A DNA stretch of 62,892 nt from an uncultured Clostridia bacterium (GTDB taxonomy: Bacteria; Bacillota; Clostridia; UMGS1883): assembly GCA_947626145.1 (NCBI GenBank), contig CANQRB010000011.1, positions 1 through 62,892 of the forward strand, in the 5' to 3' direction. The notes below the pieces were generated by a model, which saw nothing but the letters and a program-made list of their open reading frames with translations, was not told the DNA's origin and made no database searches. The position numbers were made by a program, and so were the translations under genes. Shown in pieces: positions 3,469-16,582 of the stretch (position 1 is the stretch's first letter; the number at the start of each line of letters is the position of its first letter).

Positions 3469-3497
3469 TTTACATCCGCGGAAAAATGTGTTATACT
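3469..3497 (+). promoter_or_regulatory. Promoter of the first BspA-like LRR gene
   Basis: TTTACA (3469-3474), 17-nt spacer, TATACT (3492-3497). The spacer ends AATGTGT, and the same hexamers, spacing and spacer end occur upstream of the second LRR gene (minus strand, 16263-16291). Transcription would begin at the first arm of the structured leader. Confidence 0.8.
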
Positions 3498-3502
3498 GAT
3501 TT

Positions 3503-3674
3503 TGCGGGACAACTGAATATTTTGAGATTACTTTTGTAAGTATACGTTTGTAAAAAAGCGTATGCTTGGTTGTTCATTTCTTACAAAAGTAATTCAAAAG
3601 GAATGGTTGTCTCGCAGCATTAGACCGAAGCAGGCGTTTTTTTGTGCGCCGCCGGTCTGTGCGGCGCATTTTTT
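3503..3674 (+). ncRNA. Candidate structured leader RNA with intrinsic terminator (copy 1)
   Basis: Outer stem TGCGGGACAAC (3503-3513) pairs with GTTGTCTCGCA (3606-3616). A perfect 14-bp inner stem pairs ATTACTTTTGTAAG (3527-3540) with CTTACAAAAGTAAT (3580-3593) and encloses a small ATACG/CGTAT hairpin. Downstream, TGCGCCGC/GCGGCGCA (3645-3668) followed by six T is a terminator about 35 bases before the ORF. AGACCG (3622-3627) is complementary to CGGTCT in the terminator loop. The same architecture, with different stem sequences, precedes the other LRR gene at 16.1-16.3 kb. I could not match it to a known riboswitch class. Confidence 0.65.
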
Positions 3675-3708
3675 AATATTTTTTAATTTTTAAAGGGAGG
3701 AAGAACAA

Positions 3709-5097
3709 ATGAACAAAATCATGAAGTGTCTGGCTTTGCTGGTTTGCTTGGCCATGGCAATGGCGGCGGTGCCGGTTGTGGCGCTGGCGGAAACGACCGC
3801 CGATGGATTTGAGTATGAGGTGTATGACGATCATGTGAAACTTACCAATTACACGGGTAATGCGATTGAAGTCAGTATACCAGCCGAAATTGAAGGGCTT
3901 CCCGTTACTGAAATCGGTGGTAAAGTATTTGAGAACTGCGAAACCATAACGAGAGTAAATATTCCTAACAGTGTAACGGTAATCAATTCTCGGGCGTTTG
4001 CCGGCTGCATCGGTCTAACCGATGTGACCATACCTGACACTGTGGAGGTAATTTATCATGGTGCGTTTTACGGTTGCACTGGCCTTACCAGCATAAAAAT
4101 TCCTGATAGCGTTTCAATAATCGGCGAGGGTGTGTTTTATGACTGCACTGGCCTTACCAGCGTAACTATGTCAAAAAACACCTCCGAAATTAGCAAATCT
4201 ATGTTTTATAATTGCCCCAGTCTCATCAATTTAACTTTACCTGACGGTGTTACAAAGATTGGTGACTATGCGTTTTATGGTTGCACTGGTCTCACCAATT
4301 TAGTCATACCAGACGGTGTTACAGAAATTGGCAACTATGCGTTTCATGATTGCACTGGTCTCACCAATTTAGCCATACCCGACGGTGTTACAAAGATTGG
4401 CGACTGTGTGTTTGTTGGTTGTACTGGTCTCACTACTGTAAATCTTCCTATTAACGTCACTGCAACTGGTGCCGGTTTATTTGACAGCTGTACCAATCTC
4501 CGTAACGTAACAATTCCTGATAACATTACTTTTTTTAATGTGGCTATGTTTGCTCTCTGTACTAGTCTCACCAGCGTGACCATCCCTGACAGTGTTACAC
4601 TAATTGGCGGTGCAGTGTTTTACGGCTGCACTGGCCTCACTGACATATACTATGCCGGCAGCGTAGAAGATTGGGAGAATGTCATTATTGGCGTTGATAA
4701 TGAACCTCTTTTGAATGCCACGATCCACTTCAACAGCACAGGCCCGACCCCGGAAATAAAAGTCACGGTCAACGGCAACAAAATAGACTTTGACGTGCCT
4801 CCCATGGCAATAGACGGCACGACAATGTTGCCGGTGCGTTACGCCCTTGAGCCTTTGGGCGCGGAGTTCGTGTGGGACGGCGAAGCTCAGACTGTCACCG
4901 TAACCGCAAGGGACAAGACCATAGTTCTCACTATTGGCAGCGCCACGGCCCTCGTGGACGGCGTTGAAAAGACCATGGCACAGCCCGCAATGGCCATCGA
5001 CGGCCGGACGCTGATACCCATTCGCTTTGTTTCGGAGGAGCTCGGCTATAATGTTGATTGGGACGGCGAGACAAGCACGGTAATTATAAACGGCTAA
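3709..5097 (+). CDS. Secreted BspA-like leucine-rich repeat protein with C-terminal stalk domain
   Basis: Protein of 462 residues. Signal peptide ~1-27 ends VVALA. Residues ~30-340 are LRR_5/BspA repeats of about 23 residues, with units such as IPDGVTKIGDYAFYGCTGL repeated a dozen times. Residues ~350-462 form a copper-amine-oxidase N-terminal-like 'stalk' domain with the paired motifs MAIDGTTMLPVR and MAIDGRTLIPIR. BspA-type LRR proteins are surface proteins involved in adhesion; the role here is inferred. The ATG has GGGAGGAAGAAC directly upstream. Expression probably depends on read-through of the terminator in the leader. Confidence 0.9.
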   Translation: MNKIMKCLALLVCLAMAMAAVPVVALAETTADGFEYEVYDDHVKLTNYTGNAIEVSIPAEIEGLPVTEIGGKVFENCETITRVNIPNSVTVINSRAFAGCIGLTDVTIPDTVEVIYHGAFYGCTGLTSIKIPDSVSIIGEGVFYDCTGLTSVTMSKNTSEISKSMFYNCPSLINLTLPDGVTKIGDYAFYGCTGLTNLVIPDGVTEIGNYAFHDCTGLTNLAIPDGVTKIGDCVFVGCTGLTTVNLPINVTATGAGLFDSCTNLRNVTIPDNITFFNVAMFALCTSLTSVTIPDSVTLIGGAVFYGCTGLTDIYYAGSVEDWENVIIGVDNEPLLNATIHFNSTGPTPEIKVTVNGNKIDFDVPPMAIDGTTMLPVRYALEPLGAEFVWDGEAQTVTVTARDKTIVLTIGSATALVDGVEKTMAQPAMAIDGRTLIPIRFVSEELGYNVDWDGETSTVIING

Positions 5098-12930: not shown

Positions 12931-15900
12931 TTACAATTTCAGCGGTTTAGTCAAAGGCCACATAGTGTCGTCCCAAAGGAAAATCTTATAATTCCAAGGC
13001 TCTTCTTCCGTACAGTCAAAGGTGAACACGGCCTTATCAAGGTTTTCTATACTCCCGCACTCCTTGCGTTCGGCCCTTATCAGATTGCCGCGCCGGTCGT
13101 AATGTGCCATATACAGCACACCGTCGGTGAACACTGCCCCGCTGTCGTTGACCACCGAAACGGAGACTATGCCGTTGTCGTCCCGGCTGTACTTGCCGAA
13201 GATGACGCCGCGGTTGGCCTCGCCGCTGTTCATGAAGAAGCAGTCCACGCTGTGCTGATTCATCATATTCCTGAGCTGTTGGGCGCAGGGAGCGTCGGCG
13301 TCTGCATAGACCGTCAGACCGCTGTTGTTGAAGGCGTTGGTGTATATCTTCTCAACTCCGCTGATATAGAGCCTGTCCAGCTTCGCCGAGTCAAAGGCGT
13401 ATTCGCCTATGTAAACCACGTCGTCGGGAACGGTGAACTCCTCCGCGGCAAGACCGGCGGGATAGACGGAAAGTCCGCCCCGGGAGTTGTACAGCACTCC
13501 GTCCACCGTCCGGAGACCGGTATCGTCCGGAGCCGCCTCAACCGAGGTCAGAGAGGTACAGCCGGCAAAAACGCCCATGGGCGACAAATACATTTCGGCG
13601 GGCAGAGCGACGGTTATCAGCGAGGTGCAGTTCCGGAAAGCGAAATCTCCAAGATAGCCCAAACCGGAGGGAAGGTCGATCTCCTTCAGAGAAGTACAGT
13701 CCATAAAGGCTTCATTGTCTATCCTGCTGAGGGTCTTGGGCAGCTCTACGTGCTCCAGAGCGGCGCAGCCCTTCAGGGCCGCCTCGTCTATGGTTTGGAG
13801 CGCCGGAGACAGGGTCAGGCTTTTCAGCGATGAGCATCCGGCCAGCGCGCGCCCGTTCAGCCAGGCTATACCGTCGGGCAGAACGAACTCCTTAATGCCG
13901 GTACAGTCCGCAAAGGCTTCGTTCCCGATGAATTCCAGACCGTCGGGCAGGTCAAAGCCGCTCACCGAGGCGCAGCCCCGGAAGGCGCCGCTGCCTATGT
14001 TCTTGACCGTAAAGGGTATTTCTACGGACGTCAGGGAGGCGCAGCCGTCGAAGGCGTAGTCGGGCACATACGTCATACCGCGGGCCAGCTTTACCGGTCC
14101 GGTGATGGAGCTGCAGCCGGAAAAGGCGTAGCCCCCCAGCTCAACGATGGTGTCGGGCAGGTTTATGTCGGAGAGGGCCGAACAGTCACTGAAAGCGCTG
14201 TTGCCAAAAAAGCGGATATTTTCGGGGAGAACCACACGGCGCAGATTTTCGCAGTCGCTGAAAGCTTTGTCGCCGATGGAGTCCATACGCCGGGGCAGGA
14301 CGATCTCCTCGATGGCTGAGCCCATAAACATCCCTTCCGGCACCTCGGTAATATGGGTAAGGTCTGGGAAGGTCTTAAGATTTCTGCAGTAGTAGAAGGC
14401 ATATTTGCCCACGGCGGTGATCTCGCCGCTGATACTCAGTTCCTTCAGGGACGAACAAAGATTAAAGGCGCTCTCGCCGATGGAGGTTATATTGCCGTCG
14501 ATAACGATCCTCTCCGCGTTGGAGGAATAAAAGGCTCCGGCGGGCAGCTCGGTGAGTGTGGTGCGCATTTCCACCGATTTCAAAGAGTCGCAGCCGTCAA
14601 AGGCGCCGGACTCGATGGATGTAACATCGCCGGTTATTTTCAGCTCCTTCAGAACCTGCATATCGGAGAAGTCGTTTTTGCGCAGCTCCATAGAGCCGCG
14701 AAGCTCCATCTTTTCGACAATATAATTGTAGCTGGAGGGAACAAAGCTTATGCCCGCGCCAAACACTGTCTCGCGGCCCAGAATGATGCCATAGACGCTT
14801 GTCATAAGGTCGCCGATCACCGTCCGTTCACAGGTTGAGTTTTGGAACGTATAGGATCCCAGCACACCGTCGCCGCAGAGAAGGGTCACGCTGTCAAAGC
14901 TGTCGTCGCGGAACGCGTTGTCCACGCGTTCCAAAGACTCGCCGAGGGTCAGCTCCTTCAAATTCCGGCAGTTCGAAAAGGCGTCGCTGCCAACGGAAAC
15001 GGCGGAGTCCAGGCTTTGGGAGCCGATATCGGAGCCCTTAAAGGCATCATAGTCAATCGTCTTAACTCGGGAAAGATCAAAATTTTCAAGGCCGGTACAG
15101 GCGCAAAAGGCGCGTTGGCCCACGTACTCCAGGCTTTCGGGGCACGCCGCGCCGGCCAGATCCATCTTTACGAAGGCGTTGGCCCCGACCCGGCGGAGGG
15201 CGGAGGGCAGGTTTTCAACGGTCAGGCCGGTAAAGGCGTCGTCGCCAATGACCTCAACGGTGTCGGGAATGGCGATGGTTCCCAGACCGGTTCCGGCCAG
15301 AGCCTCATTGCCGATATAAGTGACAGGGCCAAGCAGCTTCAGCTCACGCAGATTTTCGCGTCTGTTCAAGAACCTGTCGGGAATCGAGGTCACGCTCCGG
15401 CCCAGTGTGACGCTCTCTATGCCGAGATTCGTAACTATGCCGCCGATGTCGGCGAGGCCGTCGCCCACCACAAGGGTTTTGAGCCCAATCAACTGGTCGA
15501 TGCACCTGTTTCCCAGCTCGGTGACGGTGTCGGGCAGGACGAGGGTCTCCAGAGAATCACAGTCATTAAAGGCTTCGGCGCCGATTTTTTCCACCTTGCC
15601 CAGGTCGATGCTCACAAGGGCGCGGCAGCTGTCGAAGGCCTCGTCGCCAATGGTCTTGACCCCTTCGGGGATCTTGAGCTCGGTCAAATGGGAGCAGTTG
15701 ACAAAGGCGCTTTCCTCTATGGAGCGCAAAGTTTCGGGCAGAACGAGGGATTGGACCTTTATACCGTTGTAAAAACAGCCGCGCCCGATGACGGTCACCG
15801 GACAGCCGCCCATCTCGTCGGGCACTGCCACATCGAGCATTTCTTCGATGTTATGGCAGTCGAAATCGGTGAGAATGGTCTCGCCGTTTTCCTGATAGTA

Positions 15901-16020
15901 GGTGTACAGTCCCTCCTTGAAGGGGCCATCGCGTTCGGCCGACGCACAAAGGCACAGCGCCGTCAGCATCAGAGCGGCGGCGGTCGGGACAATGACCGCA
16001 AGTTTTTGGAGCTTTTTCAT
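12931..16020 (-). CDS. Large secreted BspA-like leucine-rich repeat protein
   Basis: Protein of 1029 residues. Signal peptide ~1-28 ends CLCASA. From ~60 to ~890 it consists of LRR_5/BspA repeats such as LKIPEGVKTIGDEAFDSC, interrupted by less regular segments. The last ~110 residues are a non-repeat C-terminal domain ending NYKIFLWDDTMWPLTKPLKL. No LPXTG, SLH or stalk anchor is visible, so it may be released or bound non-covalently. Likely role: adhesion or host/microbe contact, by family analogy. AGGAGG precedes the ATG. It shares its promoter design and leader RNA with the LRR gene at 3.7 kb. Confidence 0.9.
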   Translation of the reverse strand: MKKLQKLAVIVPTAAALMLTALCLCASAERDGPFKEGLYTYYQENGETILTDFDCHNIEEMLDVAVPDEMGGCPVTVIGRGCFYNGIKVQSLVLPETLRSIEESAFVNCSHLTELKIPEGVKTIGDEAFDSCRALVSIDLGKVEKIGAEAFNDCDSLETLVLPDTVTELGNRCIDQLIGLKTLVVGDGLADIGGIVTNLGIESVTLGRSVTSIPDRFLNRRENLRELKLLGPVTYIGNEALAGTGLGTIAIPDTVEVIGDDAFTGLTVENLPSALRRVGANAFVKMDLAGAACPESLEYVGQRAFCACTGLENFDLSRVKTIDYDAFKGSDIGSQSLDSAVSVGSDAFSNCRNLKELTLGESLERVDNAFRDDSFDSVTLLCGDGVLGSYTFQNSTCERTVIGDLMTSVYGIILGRETVFGAGISFVPSSYNYIVEKMELRGSMELRKNDFSDMQVLKELKITGDVTSIESGAFDGCDSLKSVEMRTTLTELPAGAFYSSNAERIVIDGNITSIGESAFNLCSSLKELSISGEITAVGKYAFYYCRNLKTFPDLTHITEVPEGMFMGSAIEEIVLPRRMDSIGDKAFSDCENLRRVVLPENIRFFGNSAFSDCSALSDINLPDTIVELGGYAFSGCSSITGPVKLARGMTYVPDYAFDGCASLTSVEIPFTVKNIGSGAFRGCASVSGFDLPDGLEFIGNEAFADCTGIKEFVLPDGIAWLNGRALAGCSSLKSLTLSPALQTIDEAALKGCAALEHVELPKTLSRIDNEAFMDCTSLKEIDLPSGLGYLGDFAFRNCTSLITVALPAEMYLSPMGVFAGCTSLTSVEAAPDDTGLRTVDGVLYNSRGGLSVYPAGLAAEEFTVPDDVVYIGEYAFDSAKLDRLYISGVEKIYTNAFNNSGLTVYADADAPCAQQLRNMMNQHSVDCFFMNSGEANRGVIFGKYSRDDNGIVSVSVVNDSGAVFTDGVLYMAHYDRRGNLIRAERKECGSIENLDKAVFTFDCTEEEPWNYKIFLWDDTMWPLTKPLKL

Positions 16021-16080: not shown

Positions 16081-16255
16081 AAAAAATGCGCCGCTTTTGA
16101 CCAAAGCGGCGCACAAAAAAACGCATGCCTCAGTCTATTGCTACGACACAATTTCATTTCCGTTTATACGCTAATTTGCTAAGAAATGACAAACTCAGCA
16201 TACGTTTTTTTCGTACGTACACTTAGCAATCAGCGCTCATTATGAAATTGTGTCG
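16081..16255 (-). ncRNA. Candidate structured leader RNA with intrinsic terminator (copy 2)
   Basis: Minus-strand counterpart of the leader at 3.5 kb. Outer 14-bp stem pairs 16242-16255 with 16144-16157 (CGACACAATTTCAT). Inner stem TTGCTAAG/CTTAGCAA pairs 16222-16229 with 16176-16183. A perfect 11-bp terminator TGCGCCGCTTT/AAAGCGGCGCA (16087-16113) has a five-base loop and T run. Stem sequences differ from copy 1 while pairing is kept. Single-stranded stretches such as GCGTTTTTTTGTGCGCCGC are identical. Confidence 0.65.
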
Positions 16256-16262
16256 CATAGTC

Positions 16263-16291
16263 AGTATAACACATTTTTTTCCGGTTGTAAA
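16263..16291 (-). promoter_or_regulatory. Promoter of the second BspA-like LRR gene
   Basis: Read on the minus strand: TTTACA, 17-nt spacer ending AATGTGT, TATACT. Both hexamers, spacing and spacer end match the promoter of the first LRR gene. Confidence 0.8.
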
Positions 16292-16310
16292 GAGTTTTTT
16301 TGAAAAATTA

Positions 16311-16582
16311 CGAATGAGGAGTTAGGAATATTTGGAAATGAGGAATGAGGAGTGAGGAATTAGGAATATTGGCAGGGCAGATACGGCGTTTGTGTGACTG
16401 TACCGTAAACGTAACAATGATACCGTAGGGGCGCCTATCGGGCGTCCGCCATCAAACGTTTACAGCGACAATAGCAAACGAAATTACAAATCAAATATTT
16501 ATGTTCCGTCTTACGGTAAACACGACAAATAAATTTGTCGTACAATTTATTCCTCATTCCTCATTCCTAATTCCTAATTTTC
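16311..16582. repeat. Composite intergenic repeat between the LRR promoter and the FNT gene
   Basis: Left heptads (GAATGAGGAGTTAGGAAT and more, 16312-16370), AATATTGGCAGGGCAG, module A with CCGCCATCAAACGTTTAC, then right inverted heptads (16548-16580). With the leader it fills the 567-bp gap. Confidence 0.75.

Follow-up and report, generated by a model that had tools for sequence, protein, structure and literature searches.

When a long and strongly folded leader RNA separates a promoter from a gene, the question arises whether the leader decides the fate of the transcript and, if so, by which pairings and in answer to what. Such a leader, about 170 nt long, lies in front of an LRR gene in the window considered here, that is, the whole analysed stretch of 62,892 nucleotides from a contig of an uncultured Clostridia bacterium. 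Judging from comparative sequence analysis, we consider it very probable that this element belongs to a large class of cis-acting transcription attenuators of Clostridia that has so far gone unnamed, the likeliest reading being an orphan riboswitch or another leader that responds to a ligand or a factor. The class itself is real, widespread and, apparently, undescribed.

Two copies of the element in one window

The sequence and the predicted fold agree with the structured leader that the original prediction had placed between the promoter and the LRR gene (Table 1): the MFE of copy 1 is -71.6 kcal/mol, as compared to a mean of -41.9 kcal/mol for dinucleotide shuffles (z = -7.6; 0 of 200 shuffles as low). 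The 14-bp inner stem, the small hairpin and the terminator with six T residues were described correctly, whereas the outer stem comprises 12 bp and not 11. A further feature went unmentioned in that description, namely, that the strand preceding the terminator (3622-3642) can pair either with the 3' arm of P3 or with the 5' arm of the terminator. The duplexes in question are strong in copy 1 (b:S, -20.3 kcal/mol; S:T5, -20.2 kcal/mol).

The second copy that had been suspected at 16.1-16.3 kb is genuine. It lies on the minus strand, upstream of another LRR gene, is 74% identical to copy 1, folds with a z of -5.1 relative to shuffles, and can form the same two duplexes (b:S, -24.5 kcal/mol; S:T5, -17.2 kcal/mol). 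Upstream of its promoter, at 16300-16580 of the window, GAGGAATGAGGAGTGAGGAATTAGGA-type short repeats border a segment, with a reverse-complement set near 16545-16580; these repeats are, possibly, a small mobile or repeat element.

Table 1. Features of the two copies of the element and of the genes behind them (window coordinates)
Feature	Position	Strand	Details and basis
Copy 1: sigma-A-type promoter	3469..3497	+	-35 TTTACA 3469-3474, 17-nt spacer, extended -10 TGT-TATACT (box 3492-3497); read from sequence
Copy 1: predicted RNA 5' end	near 3503		At, or at most 1-2 nt from, the P1 5' strand
Copy 1: P1 5' strand UGCGGGACAACU	3503..3514	+	Fold; covariation of helices 1-2
Copy 1: P2 5' strand	3527..3540	+	Perfect 14 bp; fold; both-side changes in 12/12 modelled P2 pairs
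Copy 1: segment a	3540..3551	+	P3 5' arm GUAUACG and loop; fold; P3 covariation; a:b z -15.2
Copy 1: P3 hairpin	3540-3546/3559-3565		Arms; loop A-rich
Copy 1: segment b, AAAAAAGCGUAUGCUUGGUUG	3552..3572	+	A-run, P3 3' arm, start of 3' bulge; partner a (as P3) or S; long-range covariation 91-204, 99-198, 101-196; b:S z -14.4
Loop of the element, UUAAUAUU			
Copy 1: P2 3' strand	3580..3593	+	Fold and covariation
Copy 1: P1 3' strand GGUUGUCUCGCA	3605..3616	+	12 bp with 3503-3514; fold, covariation
Copy 1: alternative hairpin	3607..3619	+	P1 3' strand with next GCA(AU); excludes inner P1; weak here, clearer in most members
Copy 1: segment S, AGACCGAAGCAGGCGUUUUUU	3622..3642	+	Partner b (anti-antiterminator) or T5 (antiterminator); duplex energies, family tests
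Copy 1: segment T5	3644..3658	+	Terminator 5' arm and loop, alternative partner of S; S:T5 z -13.6; terminator helix 99.7% paired
Copy 1: terminator stem	3645-3652/3661-3668		Followed by TTTTTT 3669-3674
Copy 1: terminator 3' arm GCGGCGCA and U6 tract	3661..3674	+	Sequence; helix covariation
Copy 1: Shine-Dalgarno GGGAGG	3695..3700	+	Sequence
Copy 1: controlled gene	3709..5097	+	Exported LRR_5 (BspA-type) protein, 462 aa, Cu_amine_oxidN1 domain at C-terminus; ATG 3709; ORF, Pfam
Copy 2: promoter	16263..16291	-	-35 TTTACA 16286-16291, -10 TATACT 16263-16268
Copy 2: switch RNA	16081..16258	-	b 16190-16211, S 16115-16136, terminator 16081-16114
Copy 2: controlled gene	12931..16020	-	LRR_5 protein, 1029 aa; ORF, Pfam

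A numerous class without a known name

Is the element an instance of an RNA already on record? The original prediction could assign it to no known class, and the comparison with Rfam 15 leads to the same view, having yielded neither a match at gathering level nor a credible weak one. At gathering thresholds, the window contains only a THF riboswitch (RF01831; 47369-47473, plus strand, 79.7 bits) and two tRNAs, and among 20 member loci no family scored above its cut-off within the element. When the element and one typical relative were scanned with permissive settings, only scattered sub-threshold matches came back. No paper describing the class was found in the literature searched, which excluded the 2017 survey of 224 motifs; the available parts of large motif surveys that appeared after 2019 (PMC8632094, PMC11109978) mention nothing matching.

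The original prediction had made its case depend on homologues outside the source genome, and these proved to be abundant. When 147 related genomes were searched by BLAST, copies turned up in two further genomes of the same genus as well as in two other families. A covariance model built from nine sequences detected the element in 91 of the 391 genomes that were drawn from the same class, Clostridia. A second model, built from 100 members, gave no match in the other-class genomes of a 398-genome sample of the phylum, a result that doubles as a specificity control. When named genomes were scanned with a 20-base pattern (the P1 3' strand and the U-run), nearly all loci turned out to be full-length covariance-model matches, mainly from gut Clostridia (Oscillospiraceae, Ruminococcaceae, Monoglobus, Eubacterium, Lachnospiraceae MD329). 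A pattern match on a Sulfurimonas contig (L156) had no covariance-model hit and was discarded as a chance match. In one scan, seven viral contigs matched the pattern, with a single true member among them, located upstream of a lipoprotein-like gene on an IMG/VR viral-classed contig (L262:10053-10211, minus strand).

The copy number is high: 6-30 per genome in full-depth searches of 17 genomes picked for having hits, including tandem arrays of two to four copies. The source genome has about 11 copies (a twelfth match is the antisense of a long hairpin), some of them divergent and lacking a canonical promoter or outer stem. Two divergent, degenerate copies in this genome lie about 1 kb apart (G000:C3:24239-25584), each facing its own LRR_5 gene; most of the 5' half of the plus-strand copy is gone. 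Within the samples searched, a single Flexilinea MAG (Chloroflexota, goat gut; L201/G786) stands outside Clostridia, with seven copies on seven contigs. Since 40 other genomes of its family gave no matches, these copies are isolated there and could reflect a recent transfer, with expansion, or mis-binned contigs.

Covariation reveals competing pairings

In the alignment of 100 members, 96% of 3765 cells form standard pairs, and both-side changes are seen in 35 of the 40 pairs. Sliding the partners by 1-3 columns lowers the pairing to 26-51% and the covariation score from 0.618 to 0.06-0.13; the terminator helix is paired in 99.7% of cases. Because a covariance-model alignment is itself fitted to the structure, mutual information and duplex-energy tests carry added weight. 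Besides recovering P1, P2, P3 and the terminator, mutual information calculated over all column pairs yielded pairs outside the model, 91-204, 99-198 and 101-196, of which the first (G-C, A-U or U-A) borders an invariant A5:U5 block. It also uncovered a three-way relation of columns 16, 156 and 174. The columns of the alternative hairpin (158-169, 157-170, 156-174) are paired in 93-97% of members, with covariation at 156-174, and the pairing of the P1 3' strand with the next CAA/CAAU gave a z of -9.4.

Duplex energies of the segments were then compared with those of partner-shuffled controls. Across the 100 members, all three proposed duplexes stood out (a:b, z = -15.2; b:S, -14.4; S:T5, -13.6), whereas non-partner combinations remained flat (a:S, +0.8; b:T5, +0.9). 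The same pattern recurred in 66 members that were not part of the alignment and whose segments were delimited by sequence landmarks, without the model (b:S, -8.8; S:T5, -10.0; control b:T5, -1.5). Partner shuffles ignore phylogeny, so that the z values are inflated, but the flat non-partner controls share the same phylogeny. Thus, the attenuator-like layout suggested by the original prediction is upheld, with terminator, antiterminator and anti-antiterminator pairings all covarying. In the MFE structures of the 100 members, the terminator forms in 53 and its 5' arm has another partner in 43, and the competing helices, taken in isolation, have similar energies; together, these figures point to nearly balanced states, as for a switch.

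The sequence of the P1 helix (UGCGACA/UGUCGCA) is strictly conserved, and the A- and U-runs are invariant. Few unpaired positions are strictly conserved, so that a compact ligand pocket is not obvious.

A promoter-fused leader of genes for exported proteins

The element is tied to a promoter at one end and to a gene at the other. Of 181 elements, 144 have a -10 box that starts 11 nt upstream of P1; TG at -14/-13 is seen in 89% of the 181, and TTGACA stands at -34. The tandem copies examined each carry a promoter-like sequence, in nearly all cases at this same position. Accordingly, the unit is promoter plus switch plus terminator, and the arrays are stacks of such units. Downstream, a same-strand ORF with a Shine-Dalgarno sequence follows 168 of 182 distinct elements, the start codon falling 15-35 nt past the terminator in 89 of the 168; on the divergent side, no ORF starts within 50 nt. 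A gap of 15-35 nt has no space for another promoter, hence these genes depend on readthrough.

What are these genes? The original prediction had proposed to test whether hits sit upstream of LRR or surface genes. The products are mostly exported: a crude rule assigns a signal-peptide-like N-terminus to 81 of the 126 proteins encoded close downstream. LRR genes make up a minority only, with LRR_5 found by Pfam in 27 of 124 close downstream proteins, followed by Cu_amine_oxidN1 (9), SLH (5), CHAP (3), M23 (2), AbrB-like (2) and many singletons. In the source genome, with roughly 18 LRR_5 genes, 6 of about 11 elements precede such a gene. The class as a whole is not restricted to the control of LRR genes. 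With downstream functions so varied, a general signal seems likelier than the end product of a pathway, and this diversity points to no clear ligand.

Several downstream loci are worth recording on their own account. A Cys-rich protein of 60-85 aa (MIID.TGI.L.PGN.GKDC.GNG....CCCDEC.Y..CC) is encoded directly behind the element in several genomes (L057, L064, L071, L073, L080, L091, L102, L104, L014). Four tandem copies, each with a promoter-like sequence, precede a SLOG/DprA-like gene (MKVAIVGSRDYY...; L158:6628-7437, minus strand), and one element is followed by an RT-14 RNA (RF02921; L065:1923-2099, plus strand) and then a reverse-transcriptase-like ORF.

A possible switch mechanism

The following scheme can be envisaged. 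Segments a, b, S, T5 and T3 form a chain of pairings (a:b, b:S, S:T5 and T5:T3), each of which excludes the one next to it. In the ON state, P1, P2 and P3 (a:b) would form, leaving S free to pair with T5 as an antiterminator, so that the polymerase would read into the gene. In the OFF state, b would pair with S, the terminator T5:T3 would form, and transcription would stop. The b:S pairing is envisaged as an H-type pseudoknot on P2, with inner P1 swapped for the small hairpin of the P1 3' strand: P1 would have to open because a linker of ~5 nt cannot span intact P1 and P2 to reach b, and the covariation of column 156 both with 16 (P1) and with 174 (small hairpin) fits such an exchange. The pseudoknot and the P1 exchange are the least certain part of the model. 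Since b:S needs a pseudoknot or P1 opening (on average, -18.8 kcal/mol), the OFF state may be reached only co-transcriptionally. The balance between the two states would be shifted by a common cellular signal, as suggested by the 6-30 paralogous copies per genome that precede unrelated, mostly exported proteins.

Of the criteria by which riboswitches are recognized, the element displays a covarying structured RNA in the 5' leader and mutually exclusive conformations, the latter by covariation. Sensing of a small molecule by this candidate riboswitch is plausible, with the chances about even. We give the same even chance to the fuller picture: a new riboswitch class, absent from Rfam, through which one general signal (e.g. 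a second messenger or an envelope/stress metabolite) adjusts, in gut Clostridia, the expression of up to ~30 surface-protein genes as one regulon, by strand swapping between the apical arm of the aptamer (the pseudoknot) and the terminator, the class having spread as a stackable promoter-switch-terminator cassette. If all copies answer one signal, that signal would probably have a major part in regulating the surface of these largely uncultured gut bacteria, and the class would offer a marker and a handle for tracing it; the exported proteins encoded behind the element may come into contact with the host or the gut environment. In any case, the promoter-fused, stackable layout with two covarying folds makes a good natural system for the study of co-transcriptional RNA switching.

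Alternative explanations

The strongest competitor, in our judgement unlikely yet deserving serious attention, is an attenuator of which one state is stabilised by a protein, that is, an RNA-binding antiterminator or another global factor. The conserved P1 helix and the invariant A- and U-runs could serve as protein sites, and a regulon of such diverse genes suits a global factor. However, the 124 downstream proteins include no regulator that recurs alongside the element, and autoregulation by proteins so unrelated to each other is implausible.

It is improbable that the element is a stand-alone small RNA acting in trans, with each copy a complete transcription unit and the gene behind it incidental. 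A separate promoter-like sequence for every tandem copy examined, unlike tandem aptamers on one leader, would accord with such a role, as would the upstream array members and some single copies that have no close gene. Still, the clustering of same-strand start codons just behind the terminator, with none on the divergent side, calls for readthrough, and a free small RNA would have no use for an antiterminator covarying with the arm and loop of the terminator. A terminated by-product of the attenuator might have a second, trans role.

Similarly improbable is that the class has already been described, as the SLH motif or as another published orphan absent from Rfam. The available part of the report on the SLH motif (Stav et al. 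2019, PMC6429828) presents it as a riboswitch candidate with 80 examples, about 60% of them before S-layer-homology genes, found in a Synergistaceae genome and ranging over Synergistaceae, Clostridia and Negativicutes. Thus, both RNAs are riboswitch candidates before surface-protein genes, the SLH motif also being present in Clostridia, and SLH domains do occur behind our element. They do so in only 5 of the 124 close downstream proteins, whereas most members of the SLH motif precede SLH genes; moreover, the class described here is far more numerous, most commonly precedes LRR_5 genes and, with the exception of the Flexilinea MAG, is confined to Clostridia in the samples searched. This distinction is drawn from the gene association and the reported range of the SLH motif.

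That the element is a mobile or repeat element inserted by chance upstream of genes is very improbable: the many copies per genome, several of them near contig ends, and the seven copies in the Flexilinea MAG could be read in this way, but the copies diverge widely in sequence and yet retain the structure, keep a fixed orientation and spacing to the start codon, have no blastn match to plasmids or phages, and supplied just the one true viral-contig member in one pattern scan. Attenuation by ribosome stalling on a leader peptide has a negligible chance and is refuted as a class-wide mechanism by the lack of a conserved uORF, since, despite a short in-frame stretch that begins at an AUG near 3603 in copy 1, only 8 of 100 members contain, within the element, a Shine-Dalgarno sequence and a start codon opening a frame of 5 or more codons, and the lengths keep no frame.

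Comparison with known systems

The preferred reading, a cis-acting and probably ligand- or factor-responsive attenuator, places the element close to several established systems. With the ribosome-mediated attenuators of the trp-leader type it shares a chain of exclusive pairings that decides between terminator and antiterminator, while differing from them in having no conserved leader peptide. Like Clostridiales-1 RNA (RF01699; Weinberg et al. 2010, PMC2864571), which is listed there as probably not cis-regulatory, it is a structured RNA of gut Clostridiales; RF01699 was absent from the permissive Rfam matches of two members. Parallels are also found with transcription-terminating riboswitches, for example those of the purine, SAM-I and c-di-GMP types, which likewise combine a structured leader at the 5' end, antiterminator and terminator folds that exclude each other, action in cis before the start codon, a regulon and tandem copies. 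Unlike these, the element matches no riboswitch in Rfam, keeps its promoter at a constant spacing from P1, and has a switch strand that pairs with the arm of the apical hairpin; its tandem copies, moreover, are each equipped with a promoter and a terminator of their own.
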